NCBI GenBank assembly: GCA_028228555.1
Contig: JAOJBP010000002.1
Span: forward strand, 1 to 64,000
Source: Candidatus Thioglobus sp.
GTDB taxonomy: Bacteria > Pseudomonadota > Gammaproteobacteria > PS1 > Pseudothioglobaceae
DNA length: 64,000 nucleotides
Direction: 5' to 3'
The number at the start of each line of letters is the position of its first letter. Position 1 is the stretch's first letter. The position numbers and the translations under genes were made by a program. Below are positions 874 through 13,783 of the stretch, piece by piece. Under the pieces are notes generated by a model. That model made no database searches, was not told where the DNA came from, and worked only from the letters and a program-made list of their open reading frames with translations.

Positions 874-1539
874 ATGAAAAAATCAATCTTAGCATCATTA
901 TTAATAGCAATAAGCGTATCAGTTGATGCAAATGAAACAAGACATGCGAGTGCTCATTTGCATGGATTAAATAATGTTGAAATGCTTCTTAGTCAAAATC
1001 AATTAAATGTGATGTATCAAATGCCAATAGTGCAGATTAATGCAGAACACGATCATGATGATCATGAAGAAGGGGGACTGATTTCTTTTATAGAAGAGTT
1101 ATTTGGTCATGGTTACGATGATCATGATGACCATGAGGAAGAAGAGAATCATGATAACAAGAATGAGCATAAGCAATCACATAAAGATGAGCATGGACAT
1201 GAAGATCATGATGAGAACAAGGTAGTAGAACCGGAGAACCTATCAGAAAAATTAGCTGAATTTAAAGACAACACTGAATTGTTTAAATTAGCATCTGCTG
1301 CAAAATGTTCTATTGTAGATTATGATTCTGAACTTCATCAGGTTTCAAGTGAATCTAAGCATAAAGATATTGAGCTGTCTTATCAGTTTAAGTGTAGCAA
1401 TCCTGAGCAGCTTAATAGTGTTGAGTTTACTGCCTTTAAACATTTTCCAGGGCTGAATGCAATTGTTTTAGATGCACTTATTAATAACAAAGCGATTTCT
1501 AAAAAAATAGACTCTGATGATGGTAAAGTTACTTGGTGA
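874..1539 (+). CDS. zrgA: His-rich secreted zinc-uptake protein, ZrgA/DUF2796 family
   Basis: The N-terminal ~19 residues form a Sec signal peptide (MKKSILASLLIAISVSVDA). The mature protein starts with the DUF2796-type segment HASAHLHGLNNVEM. A long His/Asp/Glu-rich stretch follows at about residues 56-118 with many HDHDDH-type clusters, suited to zinc binding. The C-terminal domain has two Cys (KCS and KCSN). In Vibrio cholerae the ZrgABCDE system is a Zur-regulated zinc importer of this composition; the same gene order follows here. The stop overlaps the GTG start of the ABC ATPase. Function as periplasmic zinc chaperone or binding protein is inferred from the family and operon. Confidence 0.8.
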   Translation: MKKSILASLLIAISVSVDANETRHASAHLHGLNNVEMLLSQNQLNVMYQMPIVQINAEHDHDDHEEGGLISFIEELFGHGYDDHDDHEEEENHDNKNEHKQSHKDEHGHEDHDENKVVEPENLSEKLAEFKDNTELFKLASAAKCSIVDYDSELHQVSSESKHKDIELSYQFKCSNPEQLNSVEFTAFKHFPGLNAIVLDALINNKAISKKIDSDDGKVTW

Positions 1540-2198
1540 TTTTAAATACCAATAATCTTCAATACACTTATCAAAATGGGAAGGTTGTTAGCTTTCCCGA
1601 TATTGAGATTAAAGCTGGCCAAAAGGTTCTAATTATTGGTTTTTCTGGATCTGGAAAAACAACCTTATTAAACTTAATTTCCGGTGCTTTAAAGATTCAA
1701 TCTGGAGAGGTAAATTTACTTGGAAATAGCTATTCATCCATGTCTTCTACTGAGCTAGATAGGCTTAGGGCCGATCATATTGGTTATATTTTTCAAACGC
1801 TTAATTTAATTCCATTTTTATCTGTTGCTGAAAATATTGCTTTAGGGGTTAAATTTTCGAATAGCAGGAGTGCGCTTGTTAGCAACTTGACTGTGGAAAT
1901 TGAAAGACTGCTTAAATCGCTTGGACTAGATAAAGAAGTGCTAGCTAGTCCTGTTGATAATCTTAGTATTGGTCAACAACAACGAGTTGCCGTTGCTAGG
2001 GCGCTACTTGGGAGTCCTAATTTGATTCTTGCAGATGAGCCAACTTCCGCGCTTGATCAAAACTCAACCAATAACTTCTTAAATGAGGTGATGCAAACAT
2101 TCAATCCAAAGAGTCAAGCAATACTTATGGTTAGCCACGACTTATCACTTGCACCACACTTTGATACAGTGATTGATTTTAATAAAGCCAATGTTTAA
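1536..2198 (+). CDS. ABC transporter ATPase of the zinc-uptake operon (LolD/MacB-like)
   Basis: A complete ABC ATPase of about 220 residues: Walker A GFSGSGKTT, Q-loop IFQTLNLIPF, signature LSIGQQQRVAVARAL, Walker B LILADEPTSALD and the H-loop MVSHD. It is of the LolD/MacB subfamily that works with FtsX-type permeases. The GTG at 1536 overlaps the TGA of the preceding gene (GTGA), which favours it over the in-frame TTG at 1533. Its 3' end overlaps the permease. In this context it corresponds to the ATPase of the Zrg zinc importer and energises the permease encoded next. Confidence 0.88.
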   Translation: MILNTNNLQYTYQNGKVVSFPDIEIKAGQKVLIIGFSGSGKTTLLNLISGALKIQSGEVNLLGNSYSSMSSTELDRLRADHIGYIFQTLNLIPFLSVAENIALGVKFSNSRSALVSNLTVEIERLLKSLGLDKEVLASPVDNLSIGQQQRVAVARALLGSPNLILADEPTSALDQNSTNNFLNEVMQTFNPKSQAILMVSHDLSLAPHFDTVIDFNKANV

Positions 2199-3438
2199 GT
2201 TACTATTTAAATCAATTCGCTCAAGAATGTTGCCGGTGTCTTTAGTGACAATAACATTGATGGCGTCAATGGTGTTGTTGTTAAGTATCGAGCGTATACA
2301 GCAAGCCACAAAAGAAGGCTTTAATCAAAGTATATCAGGCGTTGATGCGATTATTGGTCCGCGATCAAGCTCTCTAGAAATTGTGCTTTATACGGTGTTT
2401 CATATTGGGAGGCCTACTAATAATATCACCATGAAAACTGTTGATGATATTAAGCAAAGAAAAGATATAGATTGGCTTGTGCCTATTGCCTTGGGAGATA
2501 GTCATAAAGGTTTTAGAGTTGTAGCCACTGAAAAAAATTATTTTCAACATATTAAGTATGCAGGAGATAAGCCGCTTTTAATGTCAAGTGGCTTGGCATT
2601 TAATAAGATTTCTGAGGCAGTAATTGGTGCAGATGTTGCAAAAAAATTAAATTATAAGATAGGCTCAAGTATACAAATTAGCCATGGATCTGGCGAATCT
2701 ATCGGTATGAAGCATGATGATTTTTCATTTAAAGTTTCCGGCATATTGAATAAAACAGGCACTCCAATAGATCAAGCTATTTTTATAGATTTAAAAGGCT
2801 ATGAATTGATCCATATCGGCTGGCAAAGTGGAAAAAAGCTCTTCAGTCTTGATAGGTTTGACATGTCTTCAGTGACGAATGATGAGTTAGCCGCAAAAAC
2901 AGTAACTGCTGCTTTTGTGGGCTTAAAGTCAAAGTTAACATTATTTAAGTTTGCTAAAAATATACAAAAGTATTCAAATGAAGCTATCTCTGCAGTAATT
3001 CCAGGAATTGCACTATCTCAGTTGTGGTCAGTTATTGGTCTTGTTGATAAAGGGTTCGAGTTGTTAAGCTGGATAATTATTGCAATTAGTTTAATTGCTA
3101 TGGTTACACTGATTATCTCCAGCATTGAAAATAGAAAGCGTGAAATGACTATATATAGAGCCAATGGCGCTAGTGCGTTCTTTTTATCTAAATTAGTAGT
3201 ATTTGAAGCGTTGTTAATAGGTATAACTGCAATTATTAGTGCAATTGTATTTGTTACAATTGTTAGTTATCTCGCCACTGACCAAATAAATATAGCCTTG
3301 GGTATCACTCCTAAGTTTGAATGGGTTAGTTTAGAGGAAATAAAGGTATTTGGCATTATTTTATTAGCTGGTGTATTGAGCAGTCTTGTGCCAGCGATAA
3401 TGGTCTTTAGGAAAAACATACATCACGGTCTGAGTTAA
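2191..3438 (+). CDS. FtsX-like ABC permease of the zinc-uptake operon
   Basis: About 415 residues with an N-terminal membrane segment near residues 10-30, a large extracytoplasmic domain (roughly 35-275) and three hydrophobic segments in the C-terminal half, the MacB_PCD plus FtsX layout. The segment NRKREMTIYRANGAS before the last two helices is typical of FtsX permeases. The ATG at 2191 overlaps the ATPase stop by 8 bp; an in-frame TTG at 2173 would add six residues. MacB-type permeases usually act mechanically on periplasmic partners, so its exact role in zinc uptake is not evident from sequence. Confidence 0.85.
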   Translation: MFKLLFKSIRSRMLPVSLVTITLMASMVLLLSIERIQQATKEGFNQSISGVDAIIGPRSSSLEIVLYTVFHIGRPTNNITMKTVDDIKQRKDIDWLVPIALGDSHKGFRVVATEKNYFQHIKYAGDKPLLMSSGLAFNKISEAVIGADVAKKLNYKIGSSIQISHGSGESIGMKHDDFSFKVSGILNKTGTPIDQAIFIDLKGYELIHIGWQSGKKLFSLDRFDMSSVTNDELAAKTVTAAFVGLKSKLTLFKFAKNIQKYSNEAISAVIPGIALSQLWSVIGLVDKGFELLSWIIIAISLIAMVTLIISSIENRKREMTIYRANGASAFFLSKLVVFEALLIGITAIISAIVFVTIVSYLATDQINIALGITPKFEWVSLEEIKVFGIILLAGVLSSLVPAIMVFRKNIHHGLS

Positions 3439-3446
3439 ATAAAAAA

Positions 3447-3977
3447 ATGGTTAATAAATTTATTATTATTGTATTGTTGCTTTTTTCATCTATTTCTTTT
3501 GGTAAAGAAGTTTCAGATGATTATCTAAGTCAATTGGTCGACAGCTGGACTTTATTGGCGCCGCCTGAAATATATGACTTTATGCCGGAAAAGCTAGATT
3601 ATAAAACCATGAACAATCCTGAGTTTCAAAAAAAAATTGACAATGCTGGTAATCAAATTAACAACTTAATGGATGGAAAGGTTATTGAAATTGCTGGATT
3701 TATGGTACCGTTAAAAACTAAAGGGTCTAACGTGAGTCAGTTCTTACTAGTGCCAGAAGCTGGGCAATGTATTCATGTTCCACCGCCACCTTTAAATCAA
3801 ACGCTATTAGTTGAGATGCCTGATAATCCTACAAGTGTTAGAGATATTTACATTCCTATCATTGTTACGGGAAAGGTTTCAGTTGGTTCTCAAAGCTTTG
3901 ATATTGCAGACAGCGGCTATTCATTGACTGATGTAACTGTTGAAAATCTAACTTTTAAATATGAGGATGATCTTTAA
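3447..3977 (+). CDS. Secreted DUF3299 protein of the zinc-uptake operon
   Basis: It is 176 residues with an N-terminal signal peptide (about residues 1-19). The conserved DUF3299 core is visible: GFMVPL, then FLLVPEAGQCIHVPPPPLNQ with one Cys and one His next to a proline run, then IVTGKV and a GYSLT segment. The family often sits beside MacB-like ABC genes and is part of the Vibrio Zrg zinc-uptake cluster. The Cys-x-His pair could bind metal, but this is inference. Its stop TAA overlaps the ATG of the Fur-family gene (TAATG), indicating translational coupling. Confidence 0.78.
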   Translation: MVNKFIIIVLLLFSSISFGKEVSDDYLSQLVDSWTLLAPPEIYDFMPEKLDYKTMNNPEFQKKIDNAGNQINNLMDGKVIEIAGFMVPLKTKGSNVSQFLLVPEAGQCIHVPPPPLNQTLLVEMPDNPTSVRDIYIPIIVTGKVSVGSQSFDIADSGYSLTDVTVENLTFKYEDDL

Positions 3978-4399
3978 TGATTGATAAGAGTGAACTATTG
4001 AACAGGTGTTCAAAGGCAGGAAAAAGTGTCACACCTCAAAGAATGGCTATTATTAAGCAATTGTCAAAATCAAGTCATGGCATTTCAGCCTATGATTTGT
4101 TAGCGCAAGTAAATGCGGCTGGCCATGAATTTAATATTAGTACTATCTATAGAGTTCTTGATTTTTGGGGTGAAATGGGCGCTGTTCATAAGATCGAGTC
4201 TAATAACACATATCTAATTTGCAACGATTCACACGATAATCACTTGCATATTTTATTTCATTGTATCAAATGTCATGAGATTGAAGAATCATGTCAATTT
4301 TCAAAACAAATATCTATCCCTGATAATAAAAAGTTTATAGCTAAAAAAAACCAAGTAGTAGAATTACAGGGGTTGTGTAGTGGCTGTAAAATTGCTTAA
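3977..4399 (+). CDS. zur: Fur-family regulator, Zur-like zinc sensor
   Basis: It is 140 residues. The winged-helix DNA-binding half contains VTPQRMAIIKQL and the recognition region NISTIYRVLDFWGEMGAV. The metal-binding half has HDNHLHILFHCIKC with the CxxC structural zinc site, and a second CSGC pair at the C-terminus. Two CxxC pairs fit Zur and Fur alike; the position at the end of a zinc-uptake operon supports Zur. It probably represses its own operon through the dyad at 842-863. Confidence 0.85.
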   Translation: MIDKSELLNRCSKAGKSVTPQRMAIIKQLSKSSHGISAYDLLAQVNAAGHEFNISTIYRVLDFWGEMGAVHKIESNNTYLICNDSHDNHLHILFHCIKCHEIEESCQFSKQISIPDNKKFIAKKNQVVELQGLCSGCKIA

Positions 4400-7836: not shown

Positions 7837-8034
7837 CTATAAAATAATATTTTTTTCAGAATTGATAATGTGCTTTAACACCTTATCCCAATCTTGATCA
7901 GCCATTTTATCGATAGAAAAATTGGCTGTCATTGAGCTTTTATTCTGTGTTTCAGTGAACTTTAGCTCATTTCTTAGATTATTAGAACCTGAAAAATAAC
8001 CTATATCTAGTACAAAGTATTTTAAGTTAGTCAT
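7837..8034 (-). CDS. Short DsrH/TusB-like protein of the sulfur operon
   Basis: It is 65 residues, the last gene of the minus-strand operon, 18 bp after the preceding DsrE-like gene. The start MTNLKYFVLDIG looks like a first beta strand, and the end DWDKVLKHIINSEKNIIL resembles the closing helix-strand of DsrE-fold proteins; both upstream neighbours end the same way (KVVSI, HILTI). There is no Cys. I infer a shortened third member of a DsrE/F/H-like trio, but the similarity is weak and it could be an unrelated small protein. Confidence 0.5.
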   Translation of the reverse strand: MTNLKYFVLDIGYFSGSNNLRNELKFTETQNKSSMTANFSIDKMADQDWDKVLKHIINSEKNIIL

Positions 8035-8052
8035 ATTATGTATTAAGTGGGG

Positions 8053-8337
8053 TTAAATGGTAAGTATGTGATCAGATTTATCTAGTTCTGCACGAAATTG
8101 ATTCTGGTCTATCCTCTGTATGTTTTCATCAACAAGTATTGATAAGGGCTCAATTTCACACAACTCCAGTAACTCTGCATTTTCGATATTTTCATCATTT
8201 TCTTCAATGGGCCTATCGACAAAAATACAGCTAATATGGTGACCAAATATTGTTAATCCTGCTGCTACACGCATAGCTTCTGCATGGTCACTTATTGCGA
8301 ATACGAGAATATTTTTTTTAGTGTTGGATGTTGTCAT
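8053..8337 (-). CDS. DsrE/DsrF-like small sulfur-relay protein
   Basis: It is 94 residues: a first strand NILVFAIS, a helix HAEAMRVAAGLTIFGHH, a second strand ISCIFVDRPI, an acidic linker and a closing strand DHILTI. This is the DsrE-like fold pattern. Cys residues occur in ISCIF and ELLELCEIE; neither is at a position I can confidently equate with the active Cys of DsrE. Its ATG overlaps the stop of the upstream gene (8334-8337), showing coupling. Probably forms a complex with the two flanking DsrE-like products. Confidence 0.65.
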   Translation of the reverse strand: MTTSNTKKNILVFAISDHAEAMRVAAGLTIFGHHISCIFVDRPIEENDENIENAELLELCEIEPLSILVDENIQRIDQNQFRAELDKSDHILTI

Positions 8338-8624
8338 ATTGAGACCACCTTATCATGGTTAGCAATCATTTCACTTAAGTTAGTTTGACTACCCATAGTC
8401 GCAGCTGAAGTTGTATTAGGGTGATACCGATCCCAAGAGTGGTGGCATGCTACAGAGTTTTCTACTATGGTTAAATTTTGTTTAATTTTTTCATTTTCTA
8501 AAACCTTTACACCCGCACCTGTAAAAAAGCAGCTGTATTGTTTTTTTTGCCTTGTACATGCATCGCTTAATGGTAGCAATAGATCGGCACCATGTTCTTG
8601 GCTAATAATAAATAATAAGTTCAT
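8334..8624 (-). CDS. DsrE-family sulfur-relay protein
   Basis: It is 96 residues with a DsrE-like pattern: strand NLLFIIS, helix GADLLLPLSDACTRQ, strand YSCFFTGAGVKVL, then SVACHHSWDRYHP and a final strand KVVSI. The Cys in VACHHSW is a good candidate for a persulfide-carrying residue, by analogy with DsrE/TusD, and lies in a His-rich context. It follows the 214-residue degenerate rhodanese by 11 bp. DsrE-type proteins pass sulfur between TusA and downstream enzymes. Confidence 0.72.
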   Translation of the reverse strand: MNLLFIISQEHGADLLLPLSDACTRQKKQYSCFFTGAGVKVLENEKIKQNLTIVENSVACHHSWDRYHPNTTSAATMGSQTNLSEMIANHDKVVSI

Positions 8625-8635
8625 TCTCTAACTCC

Positions 8636-9280
8636 TTAATCAATAATAATCTTAACATTTGTATAATCTGAAGCTATAAGGTCAGCAAAAACTGCAAGTG
8701 ACGAAGAAACATCTTTTGTTTGAATGATAATTTTTTCATGTTTTGAGCAAGATTTGGGTTTATCAGTCAACTTCCATTTTTGGTTTTTCATGTTTTGAAT
8801 CTGACTTTTAAGTGCTAAAAATTTTTCTCTCATTTTTCCTAAATAAACTCTAGAACGGAATAATTGCCTCTTAGACCCACTAGCCTTGCCTAACACCTCC
8901 ACCAATTGTTTAATGTTATTATTTGGCCAAATCCATATTTTTTTTTGCCCAGAAAGAAAAAATAATGCAGCTAAAGCTCGGTTCTCTTTTTGATTTTTTC
9001 CATAAATCAATATTTCATCGGTATGAGCTATGTTGGATGTGGAAAAAGCCCAAAAAATATCTCTAAAACTAGCAAGTTGCCCTTGGGACTCGAAGTCATT
9101 AAAAGGGACGCATTTAGTTTTTTTAGTACTATAAAGTTCACATTCTTGTAGTTTGTCAGAGTTAATTGGAACCAGTTTTTCTAAGAAAGCTTTATTTGAA
9201 TTATTTGTATAACTAATATGGGGGTTGGCTATTGATTCACCAAGATGTAGAAAAATACTTATCCCTATAATATAGAGCAT
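8636..9280 (-). CDS. Rhodanese-like protein lacking the catalytic Cys, probably membrane-anchored or secreted
   Basis: It is 214 residues, starting with a hydrophobic segment (about 1-19). The part around residues 70-115, with FRDIFWAFS, DEILIYGKNQKENRALAALFFLSGQKKIWIW, follows the rhodanese pattern in which a strand leads to the active-site loop and then a helix. The loop here reads YGKNQKEN, with no Cys. Three other Cys are present (ECELYS, TKCVP, KSCSK). The C-terminal 100 residues are Lys-rich with a possible coiled segment and were not recognised. It lies between small membrane proteins and DsrE-like genes and may act as a scaffold or sulfur-binding partner. The rhodanese assignment is inference. 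Confidence 0.5.
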   Translation of the reverse strand: MLYIIGISIFLHLGESIANPHISYTNNSNKAFLEKLVPINSDKLQECELYSTKKTKCVPFNDFESQGQLASFRDIFWAFSTSNIAHTDEILIYGKNQKENRALAALFFLSGQKKIWIWPNNNIKQLVEVLGKASGSKRQLFRSRVYLGKMREKFLALKSQIQNMKNQKWKLTDKPKSCSKHEKIIIQTKDVSSSLAVFADLIASDYTNVKIIID

Positions 9281-9283
9281 TAA

Positions 9284-9568
9284 TTAGCAGCCTCCGAATT
9301 GTCGTTCTGGTATTTGTGAGGATGAATTGTTATTAATTACAGGGGGGTTTTCCATGTAGTATCCCATTAAATCAATAATTGGAAGCTCACCATAATCTGC
9401 ACCCATATTGATGTTTAGATCAAATTCTTCAATATTTTTTGGCGTATTCATTTGTTTCATTGCTTCTGGTGATAGCTTGGCAAATGGAAAAATAAGCAGT
9501 AATACAATTAACGTAATTGTTAATGCAGATGAGCAAAAAATTAAACCTATTTTAGTTTGGTATTTCAT
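9284..9568 (-). CDS. Single-pass membrane protein ending in Gly-Gly-Cys
   Basis: It is 94 residues with one transmembrane helix (about 8-29) and a C-terminal part rich in Met, Asn and Pro. The last residues are RQFGGC, leaving a terminal Cys that could carry sulfur or form a disulfide. AAAGG lies 4 nt before the ATG. It lies between the 24-residue reading frame and the degenerate rhodanese gene. No family recognised. Confidence 0.65.
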   Translation of the reverse strand: MKYQTKIGLIFCSSALTITLIVLLLIFPFAKLSPEAMKQMNTPKNIEEFDLNINMGADYGELPIIDLMGYYMENPPVINNNSSSQIPERQFGGC

Positions 9569-9580
9569 AAGACCTTTTGG

Positions 9581-9655
9581 TTAAGTAATACTGATGTACA
9601 TTAAATAAAAAGCAGTCGCAAAAGCAATTAACTGAGCAGTAGTTTCATAATCCAT
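9581..9655 (-). CDS. Very small membrane peptide (24 residues)
   Basis: A complete frame starts at ATG 9655, three bases after the preceding stop, and ends at TAA 9581-9583. It encodes 24 residues beginning MDYETTAQLIAFATAF; residues 8-24 are hydrophobic and would span or dip into the membrane. AAAGG stands about 9-10 nt upstream. It exactly fills the only sizeable gap in the operon, which supports it being translated. It resembles small accessory subunits of membrane complexes such as CcoQ in size only. Confidence 0.5.
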   Translation of the reverse strand: MDYETTAQLIAFATAFYLMYISIT

Positions 9656-9658
9656 AAT

Positions 9659-9877
9659 CTAATTACCTTTAAAATGTTTCACAAGTGTTTCTATTGATAG
9701 TATTTCACCTGATTCTGGATGAATTGCATCTGGTGTAAAGAACGGTACACCATTTTTTGAAATTTTCAAAGATTCAGGGGTTTTAGCGAACATGAAGAAA
9801 AAAGTCACGACCGTCATTATTATGAGTAGTATGGATATCACTAAAAGCTGTTTATCTTTTGCTGTATTAAAAGTCAT
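9659..9877 (-). CDS. Small single-pass membrane protein of the sulfur operon
   Basis: It is 72 residues with a transmembrane helix at about 10-30 and a short periplasmic-like tail containing NGVPFFTPDAIHPESGEILSIE split over a Pro/His/Glu-rich turn. No Cys. It starts 3 bp after the TusA-like gene. No family recognised; it may stabilise the neighbouring transporter. Confidence 0.65.
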   Translation of the reverse strand: MTFNTAKDKQLLVISILLIIMTVVTFFFMFAKTPESLKISKNGVPFFTPDAIHPESGEILSIETLVKHFKGN

Positions 9878-9880
9878 GAG

Positions 9881-10195
9881 TTATTTTTTTTGCATAAGAA
9901 CTTTCCAGCTCTGATTAGAAAAAACTGTACCTAAATGTTTACTACTTAACTCTGACTGCATCGATGCTAAAGATTCCATTGAAGTAGGATTATCAATAAC
10001 TATCTTGATAATTTCACCACTCTTGGCATCACTCATTGCGCCTTTGGTCATTAGCTGTGGTCTAGGGCATGAGAATCCAAGGCAATCAACGGTTTTTGTG
10101 ACATTTATCACATCTCCGTTATCAAGAGTTATCGTTGGATCATTGTCACTTGTATTAGCCACTTTTTCAGTCGTTTTTTTAGTAAATAAACCCAT
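9881..10195 (-). CDS. TusA-family sulfur carrier protein
   Basis: It is 104 residues. A ~30-residue N-terminal extension precedes the TusA domain with the signature VDCLGFSCPRPQLMTKGAM; Cys43 of the CPxP motif carries the persulfide in TusA proteins, and Cys38 is an additional conserved-type Cys. The later segments GEIIKIVIDNPTSMESLAS and the final helix-strand fit the family. The gene overlaps the upstream YeeE-like gene by one base and is the TsuB-like partner expected beside a TsuA-type thiosulfate transporter. Confidence 0.9.
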   Translation of the reverse strand: MGLFTKKTTEKVANTSDNDPTITLDNGDVINVTKTVDCLGFSCPRPQLMTKGAMSDAKSGEIIKIVIDNPTSMESLASMQSELSSKHLGTVFSNQSWKVLMQKK

Positions 10196-10788
10196 TAATT
10201 ATCTCCTGTTGTTTTTAAAGATTTCTTTGCTTGAATTTTTAAATATATGAAAAGTAAAACTCCAAACTGTATTAATCCAAAGAATATTGCCGGGATTCCA
10301 GTTTTTTCTTGAAGTGTTTCCGCATTAGCAAAACCTAATTGAAGTGTTTCTAGATTAGGCTCACCAGTCATTGCAATAGGAGCAGGTGGCCAATAATCAA
10401 ATGACCATAATAATGAGAATAAAAACATGCCTATGAATGTAAATATCAATGCCCAGATAGCACCAACATTCCCTTCACCAGACTTAACCCAAGTTGATAC
10501 GGTGCACGCACCTGCAAGAACCATGCCTATTCCAAATATAAATAAGCCGATAACTTGATTAAGTCCAACATCAAATTTCATGGTCTGGCCTACACCAAAG
10601 GTAATAAATGTTGTAAATCCTATAGTTAAAACCATCATAGCAAGCAATAAGGCTTCAGTATTTCGATAGGTTTTAAATAATATTGCATCTCTTAGAGCTG
10701 CTGTATTACAAAATCTAGAGCGTTGAACTAGCAATCCAACTATAGATCCAAATAAAAATGCGACTAAAATTTCACCAATTACTGACAT
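10195..10788 (-). CDS. YeeE/YedE (TsuA-like) sulfur transporter, first-half type
   Basis: It is 197 residues with about five membrane helices. It contains two of the YeeE/YedE signatures: VQRSRFCNTAALRD (Cys27) and GIGMVLAGACTVSTWVKSGEGN (Cys95). In the thiosulfate transporter TsuA three conserved Cys line the path; two are here and the third is in the neighbouring gene product (10801-11292). The gene follows that neighbour by 12 bp and overlaps tusA. I infer that the two proteins together form one transporter for thiosulfate or another reduced sulfur compound. Confidence 0.88.
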   Translation of the reverse strand: MSVIGEILVAFLFGSIVGLLVQRSRFCNTAALRDAILFKTYRNTEALLLAMMVLTIGFTTFITFGVGQTMKFDVGLNQVIGLFIFGIGMVLAGACTVSTWVKSGEGNVGAIWALIFTFIGMFLFSLLWSFDYWPPAPIAMTGEPNLETLQLGFANAETLQEKTGIPAIFFGLIQFGVLLFIYLKIQAKKSLKTTGDN

Positions 10789-10800
10789 ATCAATCCTTTT

Positions 10801-11292
10801 TTAAAATCCTAAAACTTTTTTATAAATATGAGATCCAACCCAAGCGCCTAAAATAATTCCTGTCATTGACAAATACCCTCCAAGATTTAATTGTGGTGTT
10901 AATCCAAAGAATGTGGAGACGTTACAAACGAAAGCTAGGCGTATACCAATACCCATCATAAGTCCACCTATAGTGATCATTACCCATTCAGATAAACTAC
11001 CAGGAAAGCGCCAAAAGAATTCATTGCTTAACTTTGCTCCAACAAATGCACCAAAAAGCATACCAAAGGAAATGTAAATTTTCCAATAACCAAAATCAGG
11101 TGGGAATACTATCTGCCAGAAGGGTATTTCATTAATTTGATCTCCTATAATTAGCTCAGCAGCCAAACCAGTCATCATCGTTTCACCACCACCAACTGTC
11201 CATGCACCTAAAATTAAAAAAAGAAAAATATCAAAAAAAGCAATAGCTACTAATGCAATTCTTGGGTCAAGTGATTTTTTAAAAAAGTCCAT
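10801..11292 (-). CDS. YeeE/YedE (TsuA-like) sulfur transporter, second-half type
   Basis: It is 163 residues with about four membrane helices. The signature GGLMMGIGIRLAFVCNVST (Cys123) followed by GGYLSMTGIILGAWVGS corresponds to the C-terminal repeat of full-length YeeE/YedE proteins. It is the first gene of the minus-strand sulfur operon. A promoter-like element on the minus strand lies 66-95 bp upstream. The ordering, with the C-terminal-type half encoded first, is worth noting. Confidence 0.85.
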   Translation of the reverse strand: MDFFKKSLDPRIALVAIAFFDIFLFLILGAWTVGGGETMMTGLAAELIIGDQINEIPFWQIVFPPDFGYWKIYISFGMLFGAFVGAKLSNEFFWRFPGSLSEWVMITIGGLMMGIGIRLAFVCNVSTFFGLTPQLNLGGYLSMTGIILGAWVGSHIYKKVLGF

Positions 11293-11351
11293 ATTTGTTA
11301 TTTATTTTTTATAGAAGTTGAGAGTACTATATTTGTTATTTGGAATTTATG

Positions 11352-11387
11352 GGTAGTATTATTGTACTAGTTTTTAAAAAAGGTAGT
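11352..11387 (-). promoter_or_regulatory. Promoter-like element facing the sulfur operon
   Basis: On the minus strand AACTACC is followed after about 18 nt by AATAAT (11363-11358), with AACTAG in between. The same order, ACTACC-TTTT-ACTTAG-ATAAT, occurs in the two plus-strand copies at 11399-11450 and 11755-11806, with 3 nt different spacing. The predicted start would leave a leader of about 55-60 nt before the ATG at 11292. The similarity was found by eye. Confidence 0.35.
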
Positions 11388-11398
11388 TTTAACCTATA

Positions 11399-11450
11399 TA
11401 AAAATATAGCAAATGCTACTACCCTTGCCTATATTACTTAGAGAATAATG
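11399..11450 (+). promoter_or_regulatory. Promoter-like repeat block, copy 1
   Basis: TATAGCAAATGCTACTACC (11405-11423) followed by ACTTAG (11436-11441) and ATAAT (11445-11449). The same block recurs 356 bp downstream in copy 2 without gaps; the 19-nt core differs at one base. The ATAAT fits a -10 element and the core may be an activator site. It does not sit directly before a gene but before the palindrome and possible structured RNA at 11446-11547. Confidence 0.45.
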
Positions 11451-11467
11451 TTATCTGAATAACATTA
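11446..11467. promoter_or_regulatory. 22-bp perfect palindrome, candidate operator
   Basis: TAATGTTAT and ATAACATTA are exact inverted repeats separated by CTGA. It overlaps the right end of promoter-like copy 1, so a dimeric regulator bound here would block or tune transcription from it. The neighbouring ribbon-helix-helix gene (13490-13783) encodes a possible regulator, but no link is shown. Confidence 0.45.
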
Positions 11468-11547
11468 ACTTTACTCCCTTAAAAGTAGTTATTCAACCGG
11501 GTGGCAGTTTCCTTATTTTCTCCTCTAGAGTAAAGTAAGAGTCACCC
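11468..11547 (+). other. Possible structured RNA with pseudoknot potential
   Basis: ACTTTACTC (11468-11476) can pair with GAGTAAAGT (11528-11536). GGGTGGC (11499-11505), inside that loop, can pair with GTCACCC (11541-11547) outside it (one G-U), which together would make an H-type pseudoknot or two alternative hairpins. It starts just after the predicted start point of promoter copy 1. No matching known riboswitch was recognised. Confidence 0.3.
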
Positions 11548-11754
11548 AACTTTATTCTTTATTTCTTAAGCACACTAAAAAAATGTCGTTATTAAGGAGT
11601 ATTTTTACGTCCAAAGTTAATTAGAAAATTATTAAAATACTTTTCTTTAATCTAAAGAATATGCCACATTTTTTGCTGAAATAATAATAAAATTTTTGTA
11701 GAAAAAGTATATAGGTATATTTATAGTTATAAAAATAAGATCGACTGGGTTAAA

Positions 11755-11806
11755 TAAATGTATAGCAAATACTACTACCTTTTAACATATCACTTAGCGC
11801 ATAATA
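11755..11806 (+). promoter_or_regulatory. Promoter-like repeat block, copy 2, upstream of the rhodanese gene
   Basis: TATAGCAAATACTACTACC (11761-11779), CACTTAG (11791-11797) and ATAATA (11801-11806) repeat copy 1 at the same spacing. A start near 11812 would give a 27-nt leader with GAAAGGGG as ribosome site before the ATG at 11839. Together with copy 1 and the minus-strand element this suggests co-regulation of both sides of the sulfur locus. Confidence 0.45.
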
Positions 11807-11838
11807 AAATTTGAAATAATAATGAAAGGGGTTAGAGT

Positions 11839-12786
11839 ATGAGAAACATGAAAATAAAAACGCTTGCTTTTGGTATTGCGTTTTCACTCGGAGGAGTGTC
11901 ATTAGCAAATACACCGTTAGTGGATGTTGATTGGGTGAAGTCAAATTCGTGTAATAGTAATGTCAGAGTTATTGATATTCGTAATGGATTAGATGGTGCA
12001 TCGAAAACGGACTATCTTAAGGGTCATATCCCTTGTGCGGTATATAGTAATTATCTTAAAGATGGCTGGCGTGCAAAGGTTAAAAATGTTGTTGGTCAGT
12101 TAGCACCAAGTCCAAAACTTGAAAAATTAATTGGTAAGCTTGGCGTTGATAACAATACACATGTTGTTATTTATCATCACGGCAAAAGTGCATTAGACCT
12201 TGCAAGTGCTACTAGGGTTTATTGGACATTTAAGGTTTTAGGCCATGATAATGTGTCAATTCTAAATGGTGGCTATCTTGCTTACATTAAAGAAAAAGAT
12301 AGTAAGAAGAGGGTGAAGAATAAAGTTGAAAGAGGTAATTATGCAGTGAGGGCTAAAAATTTCAAAGCTTCGCTACGTACTAATATGATGGCCGACTCAA
12401 ATGATGTTCTAGCAGCTGTTAATGATTCAAGCGTGGCATTAGTTGATCTGCGCCCTCATCATCAGTTTATTGGTATCAATAGACATGGAAAAGCAAAAAG
12501 AAATGGAACCATACCAACAGCTAAAAATCTTTCTGAAAGCTGGTTAACAATGAATGGTGGTGGCACTTTACGTAGTTCAGATGAGATTAAAAAGCTTTAT
12601 AAAGTTGCCGGCGTGAAACTTGGCGGTGATCAAATTAATTTTTGTAACACTGGACATTGGGCTTCTTTAGGTTGGTTTGCTGATAGTGAAATTATGGGCA
12701 ATAAGTCTTCAAGACTTTATGATGGCTCAATGGTTGAATGGTCATCAAACAGCTCTTTACCAATGGAGAAGAAAGTAGATTTTTAA
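11839..12786 (+). CDS. Secreted thiosulfate sulfurtransferase (tandem rhodanese domains)
   Basis: It is 315 residues with a Sec signal peptide (about 1-24, VSLAN). Two rhodanese domains follow: an N-terminal inactive one (VRVIDIRNG, KGHIPCAVYSNYLKDGW) and a C-terminal one with LVDLRPHHQFIG and the active-site loop INFCNTGHWAS (Cys269). The family moves sulfane sulfur from thiosulfate to thiophilic acceptors; the signal peptide places it in the periplasm. It is followed 19 bp later by a cytochrome c gene and faces the sulfur-transport operon across a shared regulatory gap. Confidence 0.87.
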   Translation: MRNMKIKTLAFGIAFSLGGVSLANTPLVDVDWVKSNSCNSNVRVIDIRNGLDGASKTDYLKGHIPCAVYSNYLKDGWRAKVKNVVGQLAPSPKLEKLIGKLGVDNNTHVVIYHHGKSALDLASATRVYWTFKVLGHDNVSILNGGYLAYIKEKDSKKRVKNKVERGNYAVRAKNFKASLRTNMMADSNDVLAAVNDSSVALVDLRPHHQFIGINRHGKAKRNGTIPTAKNLSESWLTMNGGGTLRSSDEIKKLYKVAGVKLGGDQINFCNTGHWASLGWFADSEIMGNKSSRLYDGSMVEWSSNSSLPMEKKVDF

Positions 12787-12805
12787 TAAAAATTTAGTTT
12801 TTCCA

Positions 12806-13453
12806 ATGTTAAGAACAATATTGGCCTCTATAGTACTTATTTTTTTAGGTAGTGCTATAGGGGCCAATTCTGTTGTTGGCATAAAACAAATATCTTTGAT
12901 TGAATATGATAAGCAATTATGCAGCTCAGAGCTGGTTATTCTTAGGGGTGATCTTACAAAGTTAAACAAAATAACAACACCTGAGTTATATAAAAAAGGT
13001 TTAAAAAGTCGAATAGACAGCTCCTTTAAAACGCTGAATTGGATTTGCAGGGGGTTTATTGATAATGACCATAATTTGTCTAGTTTATTTACAAAATTAG
13101 AGTCATTATTTATAGCTAACAAGTTTGAAGAGCTTCACTTTAAGCTTGATTTTTTGATAAAAAAATACCCATTAAATCTTGATCAATATTTGCCAGACAA
13201 GGTGTCAAAAGAAGATATCAAGGTTGGTGTAAAAATTTATCAGCATTATTGCCTTAGCTGTCATTTGAGCCATAATGATCAATTAAAGATGCCGGCATTA
13301 TCATTAGAGGTAATGGCTAAAAGCCTTTCATCCGAAGAGTTTATTGCCCGTATGATTGCTGGAGTTAAGGGTAATGGTAAAATTGCGCTCAGGAATCCTT
13401 TGAATCATAAAGATATTTCTAGTATTTATAGTTACTTACTTTACAAAGAATAA
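12806..13453 (+). CDS. Secreted monohaem c-type cytochrome
   Basis: It is 215 residues with a signal peptide (about 1-20). The N-terminal ~125 residues are an unrecognised helical domain with two Cys (LCSSE, WICRG). The C-terminal part is a class I-like cytochrome c domain with the haem motif HYCLSCH (Cys149, Cys152, His153); Met162 in LKMPAL is the likely distal ligand. The gene pairs with the rhodanese upstream, so it may accept electrons from periplasmic sulfur chemistry. This partnership is inferred from adjacency. Confidence 0.82.
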   Translation: MLRTILASIVLIFLGSAIGANSVVGIKQISLIEYDKQLCSSELVILRGDLTKLNKITTPELYKKGLKSRIDSSFKTLNWICRGFIDNDHNLSSLFTKLESLFIANKFEELHFKLDFLIKKYPLNLDQYLPDKVSKEDIKVGVKIYQHYCLSCHLSHNDQLKMPALSLEVMAKSLSSEEFIARMIAGVKGNGKIALRNPLNHKDISSIYSYLLYKE

Positions 13454-13489
13454 ATTACAATAACACTAAAATTTTTTAGGTATTTAAAT

Positions 13490-13783
13490 ATGTCCCTTTT
13501 ATTTTCTGAGCACAAACTCCAGCACTTATTCAATGTTTGTTCGACTGAACAAGTGTTGGAGTTTGTCCCACTTAAGAGAAGCATTCGCCTTCATGGGCAC
13601 AGTACAACCATTAGATTGGAAAAAGCTTACTGGACAGTTTTAGAGCAAATGGCAGAGGATGAAGAGCTTTCATTGGCAAAACTACTGGAGTTAATTAGTG
13701 ACACCTGTCTTGTGGCAAATGATAAAAATCTTGCCTCTTGCTTGCGAGTGCTATGCTTAAAGTATATTAATATCTATTATTAG
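13490..13783 (+). CDS. Ribbon-helix-helix domain protein (RHH_4 type)
   Basis: It is 97 residues. The segment KRSIRLHGHSTTIRLEKAYWTVLEQMAEDEELSLAKLLELI split by strand and two helices is the ribbon-helix-helix pattern of the RHH_4 family, ending NLASCLRVLCLKYI. Such proteins are presumed DNA-binding. It follows the cytochrome gene by 36 bp and could regulate the locus; the target is unknown. Confidence 0.8.
   Translation: MSLLFSEHKLQHLFNVCSTEQVLEFVPLKRSIRLHGHSTTIRLEKAYWTVLEQMAEDEELSLAKLLELISDTCLVANDKNLASCLRVLCLKYINIYY

Follow-up and report, generated by a model that had tools for sequence, protein, structure and literature searches.

How does sulfane sulfur gathered in the periplasm reach the cytoplasmic enzymes that oxidize it? 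For sulfur bound to SoxYZ, entry into the cytoplasm has been described as proceeding 'by unknown means' (PMC11582611). A stretch of 64,000 nucleotides from Candidatus Thioglobus sp. (GenBank assembly GCA_028228555.1, contig JAOJBP010000002.1, positions 1 to 64,000), called the window throughout, raises this question with a gene cassette that combines a split YeeE/YedE transporter, a TusA-like carrier, small membrane proteins, rhodaneses and a trio of DsrE-like type. The cassette is a real, conserved and largely unannotated extension of a recently recognized module, the YTD cluster, which has the core yeeE-tusA-dsrE-chp1-chp2 and the alias DsrEFH type II module (PMC13293266, PMC13047784). On balance, the evidence favours a role of this extended module in the uptake and relay of sulfane sulfur, feeding the reverse Dsr pathway. 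The sequence-only reading that first singled out the locus did not know such a gene set; its core had in fact been published, and for the extra parts no description was found in the open literature searched.

The minus-strand genes between positions 11292 and 7837 form a single tight operon with intergenic spacings of −4 to +18 nt, in the order YC, YN, TusA, M72, M24, M94, R214, DE, DF and DH. On the divergent plus-strand side follow the secreted rhodanese SecRho, the cytochrome c Cyt and a ribbon-helix-helix (RHH) protein (see the table). Every gene was found where the sequence-only reading had placed it, including the three tiny membrane proteins M72, M24 and M94, and domain or motif matches confirmed the nature of the three divergent products. 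Chance grouping is ruled out because ∼90 loci, spread over Alpha-, Beta- and Gammaproteobacteria, keep the set with little change in gene order.

Features of the cassette and of its divergent intergenic region (window positions; aa, amino acids)
Feature	Positions	Strand	Description	Basis
YC	10801..11292	-	C-terminal half of split YeeE/YedE (TsuA-family) transporter, 163 aa; first gene of the operon	PF04143, E 1e-20, profile 172-310
YN	10195..10788	-	N-terminal half of split YeeE/YedE transporter, 197 aa	PF04143, E 1.6e-24, profile 1-120
TusA	9881..10195	-	TusA-like sulfur carrier, 104 aa	PF01206, E 1.8e-13
M72	9659..9877	-	single-pass mini membrane protein, conserved GVPxxxP...HPxxGE tail	one hydrophobic segment
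M24	9581..9655	-	mini membrane protein of 24 aa, MDYETTAQLIAFATAFYLMYISIT	homologues in 88/96 loci
M94	9284..9568	-	single-pass membrane protein, last residue Cys (FGGC)	homologues in 91/96 loci
R214	8636..9280	-	exported tandem rhodanese without catalytic cysteine	family PF00581 matches and fold
DE	8334..8624	-	DsrE-like protein, 96 aa, Cys60 between strand and helix	fold
DF	8053..8337	-	second trio protein, 94 aa, chp1/DsrF-II position	homologues in 87/96 loci
DH	7837..8034	-	third trio protein, 65 aa, chp2/DsrH-II position	homologues in 84/96 loci
SecRho	11839..12786	+	secreted two-domain rhodanese, loop CNTGHW in second domain (Cys269)	PF00581, E 9.9e-22
Cyt	12806..13453	+	exported c-type cytochrome, one CxxCH	weak PF13442 match
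RHH	13490..13783	+	RHH_4-family regulator	PF13467, E 8.5e-23
Repeat, first copy	11406..11426	+	element ATAGCAAATRCTACTACCYTT in the divergent intergenic region	2 found, 0.02 expected
Repeat, second copy	11762..11782	+	element ATAGCAAATRCTACTACCYTT directly upstream of SecRho	same count

Searches in other bacteria show that these parts travel together, the divergent rhodanese, cytochrome and RHH gene included. With the cassette TusA as query, a scan of 84,980 species genomes yielded 80 loci, which belong to Alpha-, Beta- and Gammaproteobacteria; Sedimenticola, Thiobacillus, Magnetovibrio blakemorei MV-1, Rhodobium orientis and Marimonas are among the hosts. By profile searches, each of the ten operon genes was detected in 84 to 94 of 96 loci (three of them duplicates), and all ten are present in 64 of the 67 loci that have room for the whole set. 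DE alone, searched against 369 gammaproteobacterial genomes, gave 12 strong matches besides the window: nine lie in a cassette of the same order and three (L036, L039 and L040) in a trio without M72, M24, M94 and R214. Full-length YeeE and TusA stand upstream of the trio in L036 and L039, the classical YTD arrangement, and L040 is a short contig. In the first of these YTD-like loci, amine-oxidase-like and radical SAM genes, apparently unrelated, lie between tusA and the trio (L036:2856-9171).

Because the other loci had been collected via TusA, M94 was also searched by itself. Among the 369 genomes, 11 were positive, namely ten cassette genomes and G347, which has a divergent cassette on the same contig as M94; all 11 also encode DE on that contig, and M94 occurs nowhere else in this sample. 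An even draw of 399 genomes from the phylum contained M94 in two, the second of which (L148) also has the full cassette. The possibility that the membrane genes never stand alongside the transporter and TusA, which would speak against a joint system, is thus not borne out by this search of 369 genomes.

Within the host genus, R214 occurs in 4 of 12 genomes, and in 0 of the 71 other family members searched. The M94 search of genus and family agrees, apart from a weak match in the congener G071 (E 0.003), which was rejected because it falls on the membrane segment of a 222-aa protein without relation to M94. The carriers compared differ in the genomic neighbourhood of the cassette, and one has an integrase-like gene nearby; the cassette therefore has the look of a mobile accessory unit. 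Relatives of its TusA were absent from IMG/VR and from plasmids, and a phage origin was rejected on the IMG/VR result. In a tree of the transporter halves the window falls on a long branch, and no transfer history was drawn.

YC and YN cover complementary parts of the Pfam Sulf_transp profile (PF04143). Cys27 and Cys95 of YN (invariant in 87/87 and 88/88 homologues) and Cys123 of YC (84/84) are the three TsuA cysteines, and the pair accordingly shows both the domain and the conserved cysteines of the TsuA/YeeE family. YC is 97–99% identical in three congeners. The neighbouring TusA, with an N-terminal extension that starts MGLF, retains Cys43 of its CPRP motif in 89/89 homologues. Proteins of YedE/YedF type have a link with selenium as well, and handling of selenium or tellurium would fit the presence of the cassette in Sedimenticola selenatireducens (L048 and L049) and weak scores of TusA and YN against selenium-type YedF and YedE models. 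Those scores are far under the curated cut-offs, dsr and sox genes are common to the hosts, most of which are not selenium bacteria by name, and sulfur best accounts for the small Thioglobaceae-like host; this leaves the selenium explanation hardly plausible.

The trio adds the next cysteine. The AlphaFold2 model of DE has a predicted local distance difference test score of 94.4, and its best Foldseek matches are members of the DsrE/F-like family and TusBCD chains (E 0.003 to 0.013, probability near 1); a sequence search of the PDB with DE gave nothing useful. Cys60 is kept in 82/82 homologues and sits in the model at a strand end before a helix. DE shares with the YTD-type DsrE a single conserved cysteine, the putative counterpart of the active Cys67 in the Electronema protein. 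Aligned by hhalign with the host's own type I DsrE, it reached a probability of 2.4% over 32 columns, which is not significant, and it lacks by this comparison the similarity expected of a canonical type I DsrEFH member. DF has a conserved EAMRV motif, and its homologues include proteins of the YTD-like loci L036, L039 and L040; the match of DH to such loci is weak (E 0.001–0.006). Where the sequence-only reading had spoken of three DsrE-fold-like proteins, that name is confirmed for DE by fold and, for DF and DH, supported by homology and position.

Between tusA and the trio lie the parts that set the cassette apart. M72 has homologues in 91/96 loci and no match in a Pfam search. M24 is too short for ordinary lists of genes or open reading frames; its frame is kept in three congeners with mostly silent changes. 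M94 ends on its cysteine in 88/88 sequences, in 56 of them as FGGC. R214 was expected to be a rhodanese-like protein without catalytic cysteine, and such it proved to be: PF00581 is matched by 46 of 62 family members, sulfurtransferases in the PDB are found at E 5e-12, and the AlphaFold2 model (score 92.1) leads Foldseek to tandem rhodaneses (E 1.9e-7) and 3-mercaptopyruvate sulfurtransferases. The fold is that of an active rhodanese, but the catalytic loop has no cysteine, Cys47 and Cys57 being the only invariant ones. Its homologues in other genomes are longer, 63% of them with a hydrophobic segment at the C-terminus. M72, M24, M94 and R214, or their constant association, have no description in the open literature searched, with subscription journals and supplements outside its range; these four families and the two mutually exclusive regulators described below are apparently undescribed. 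Low-scoring Pfam and NCBIfam matches (DAG kinase, MapZ, SecE and citrate synthase) were under cut-off and were dismissed.

The link to the Dsr pathway comes from the hosts. The window belongs to a genome of 1.25 Mb, 98% complete, that contains a SoxB gene and a complete canonical reverse-dsr operon, dsrABEFHCMKLJOPNR, with its type I dsrEFH (gene names assigned from gene order and sequence). Gene content and size of the genome suggest a member of the SUP05/Thioglobaceae group. As the sequence-only reading had suggested for examination, the cassette co-occurs with dsr: of 27 genomes with the cassette, 24 have a dsrA that scores above its curated cut-off, and 22 a SoxB above cut-off. The three genomes without such a dsrA are an incomplete one (66%), one in which the gene is partial and G343, seemingly a true absence. 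Against a class background of 112 in 369, dsrA is present in 9 of the 11 cassette genomes of that draw (Fisher p 5e-4, a guide only, as the test ignores the kinship of genomes). These counts bear on the explanation that thiosulfate or sulfane sulfur is taken up for biosynthesis, as by TsuA–TsuB in E. coli, with the trio feeding thiolation or cysteine synthesis and not energy metabolism. The E. coli assimilation pair does have at its core a transporter of the TsuA family and a TusA-like protein (PMC11073785), and one cassette genome does without dsrA. The frequency of dsrA, well over background, and of SoxB points the other way, as do the cytochrome c, the secreted rhodanese and the trio, all foreign to the assimilatory pair; occurrence in 4 of 12 congeners is oddly patchy for a biosynthetic need. 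A purely biosynthetic role therefore seems unlikely.

On the divergent side, a true SecRho homologue is present in 59 of the 67 complete loci, mostly downstream within the same operon (a raw count of 67/67 included cross-matches to R214). Near the cassette of one congener, another secreted rhodanese lies beside a gene resembling the SoxH-type metallo-beta-lactamase fold (L013:14075-15903). Cyt occurs in 67/67 complete loci, and its CxxCH motif in 78/78 homologues. The RHH gene, in other hosts usually divergent from YC, encodes invariant cysteines at positions 17, 73, 84 and 89 (47/47, 45/45, 45/45 and 44/44). It is present in 34 of the 67 complete loci. In another 23 loci (L042:1415-5054 among them) its place is taken by genes, upstream of the cassette, for a histidine kinase, a sigma-54 response regulator and a PhnD-like binding protein. 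No locus combines the two types of regulator, and ten carry neither type. The PhnD-like protein is a candidate sensor for a sulfur oxyanion.

A regulator with four invariant cysteines invites the thought that the cassette serves sulfur sensing or the detoxification of sulfide and persulfide, with small amounts of imported sulfane sulfur signalling to the RHH protein, or with persulfide being cleared, as proposed for SoxT1B. That YeeE relative serves signalling in Hyphomicrobium (PMC11582611), and many hosts are in any case fully equipped with genes for sulfur oxidation. Yet the transport parts stay constant in the 23 loci with the other regulator and the ten with neither, a set of twelve genes with an entire second DsrE trio would be large for a sensor, and a persulfide dioxygenase was not noticed in the cassette. 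We regard this explanation as distinctly improbable.

The repeat element ATAGCAAATRCTACTACCYTT is also found in the same intergenic region of the congeners L012-L014, and its 17-base core has just one further copy in the genome (G000:C7:42245). Upstream of SecRho, a promoter-like stretch of ∼95 bases around ATAGCAAATACTACTACC (11712-11806) has a near-exact copy at L153:4193-4290, which there lies upstream of a small putative membrane reading frame and of a gene for a 104-aa Sel1-repeat protein, beside a tRNA-like sequence.

A cysteine is present at every proposed station of a relay: positions 27 and 95 of YN, 123 of YC, 43 of TusA, 60 of DE and the C-terminus of M94. Substrate, order and direction of transfer may then be pictured as follows. 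In the periplasm, SecRho would pick up or release sulfane sulfur from thiosulfate or polysulfide, and Cyt would take electrons during its loading as a persulfide. M94, tethered to the membrane, might carry this sulfur on its C-terminal cysteine, in the manner of the GGC arm of SoxY, with R214, M72 and M24 docking parts onto the split YeeE channel. By way of the three cysteines of YeeE the sulfur would reach TusA, from there Cys60 of the trio and DsrC, and finally DsrAB. The cysteine-rich RHH protein would govern expression, a task that would fall in other lineages to the PhnD-like sensor, kinase and sigma-54 regulator.

The direction of this flow finds a partial parallel in vitro, where DsrEFH-II exchanges sulfur with TusA both ways and passes it to DsrC one-way, Cys67 of DsrE being essential (PMC13293266). 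An outward relay, in which sulfur leaves the cytoplasm for sulfur stores or for carriers of the periplasm, could draw on the reversible exchange with TusA (PMC13293266), and sequence fixes no direction; the one-way step to DsrC (PMC13293266) and the import function of all YeeE-family members studied in two publications (PMC11073785, PMC11582611) make it very improbable. In its more specific form, the inward relay would be a dedicated transmembrane complex, in which M94, carrying sulfur on its tail cysteine, is held on the split YeeE by R214 and the two mini-proteins and links SecRho and Cyt to TusA and to the host's second DsrEFH, the one of type II. It is tempting to propose such a complex, though only tentatively. 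If real, it would give sulfur a complete path from periplasm to cytoplasm and on into the reverse Dsr pathway.

Besides the kinship behind the dsrA test, several observations tell against uptake and relay into the Dsr pathway. The type I DsrEFH gives the host one such trio even without the cassette. The membrane orientation of M94, M72 and M24 is based on a weak positive-inside signal. The loop cysteine, found in 72 of 80 SecRho homologues, is absent in the other 8, and two congeners have a different rhodanese paralogue of 30% identity (L013:9736-10611 and L014:10448-11323) with transporter halves that are 97–98% identical, which, judged by these identities, is a gene replacement within the cassette. 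Finally, G343 (L044) has a complete cassette and SoxB without dsrA; Dsr is thus not the sole destination of the sulfur.

Even so weighed, uptake and relay of sulfane sulfur remain the probable function, and the cassette is a compact, conserved and genetically testable candidate for periplasm-to-cytoplasm sulfur transfer, with a cysteine at every step. Strains in culture carry it, Sedimenticola selenatireducens and Magnetovibrio blakemorei MV-1 among them, and at least four conserved families without assigned role (M72, M24, M94 and R214) gain a probable context. G343 offers a natural test case for the destination of the imported sulfur, be it sHdr or another pathway. Elsewhere in the window, plus-strand genes at 874-4399 encode a histidine-rich exported protein, an ABC ATPase, an FtsX-like permease, a small exported protein and a Fur/Zur-type regulator, a set that looks like a metal-homeostasis operon.

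Among known systems, TsuA–TsuB (YeeE–YeeD) of E. coli and Spirochaeta shares with the cassette a transporter family with three cysteines and a TusA-like neighbour (PMC11073785). TsuA is one polypeptide, however, and the cassette has two; TsuA–TsuB is assimilatory (PMC11073785), and the cassette TusA scores 14.5 bits against the TsuB/YeeD NCBIfam model, for which the cut-off is 147.5. SoxT1A/SoxT1B and PmpA/PmpB are likewise YeeE relatives for sulfur import in sulfur oxidizers, and SoxT1A of Hyphomicrobium imports sulfur and is needed for thiosulfate oxidation (PMC11582611). Unlike the split cassette transporter, SoxT is full length and tied to sox or shdr genes; PmpA and PmpB are also N- and C-halves, but of ∼130 aa with one cysteine each (PMC11582611), and YC and YN, with one and two cysteines in longer chains, do not match them. 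M94 recalls SoxY in the cysteine of its GGC-type C-terminal arm, a likeness of working at most: it is a single-pass membrane protein with cysteine as the very last residue, and it is not a SoxY member, Pfam and NCBIfam searches having given no SoxY domain match. With canonical type I DsrEFH and TusBCD, the trio shares the fold of DE, a cysteine between strand and helix and three genes in a row, and the host has both the type I set and the cassette trio.

The closest relative is the YTD cluster, in which, as reported in 2026, the three small proteins form a DsrEFH-like type II complex (PMC13293266; PMC13047784). In both, a YeeE-family transporter, TusA and a single-cysteine DsrE-like gene followed by two small genes are adjacent and in the same order; in the cassette, YeeE/YedE and TusA genes stand beside the trio, and the row DE-DF-DH is present in at least 84 of 96 loci. 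The cassette differs in a transporter split into two genes, C-half first, in the insertion of M72, M24, M94 and R214 between tusA and dsrE, and in the addition of a secreted rhodanese and a cytochrome c. A survey of type II modules covered 985 genomes, of which 4.7% had oxidative dsrAB, with subtype 1 partly in Pseudomonadota (PMC13293266; PMC13047784), so that the cassette trio probably belongs to this published diversity. The YTD cluster is found mainly in sulfate reducers, whereas the cassette resides in Proteobacteria that carry dsr and sox genes, and in the host of the window it accompanies a dsr operon of oxidative type. It thereby extends the DsrEFH type II kind to these bacteria.

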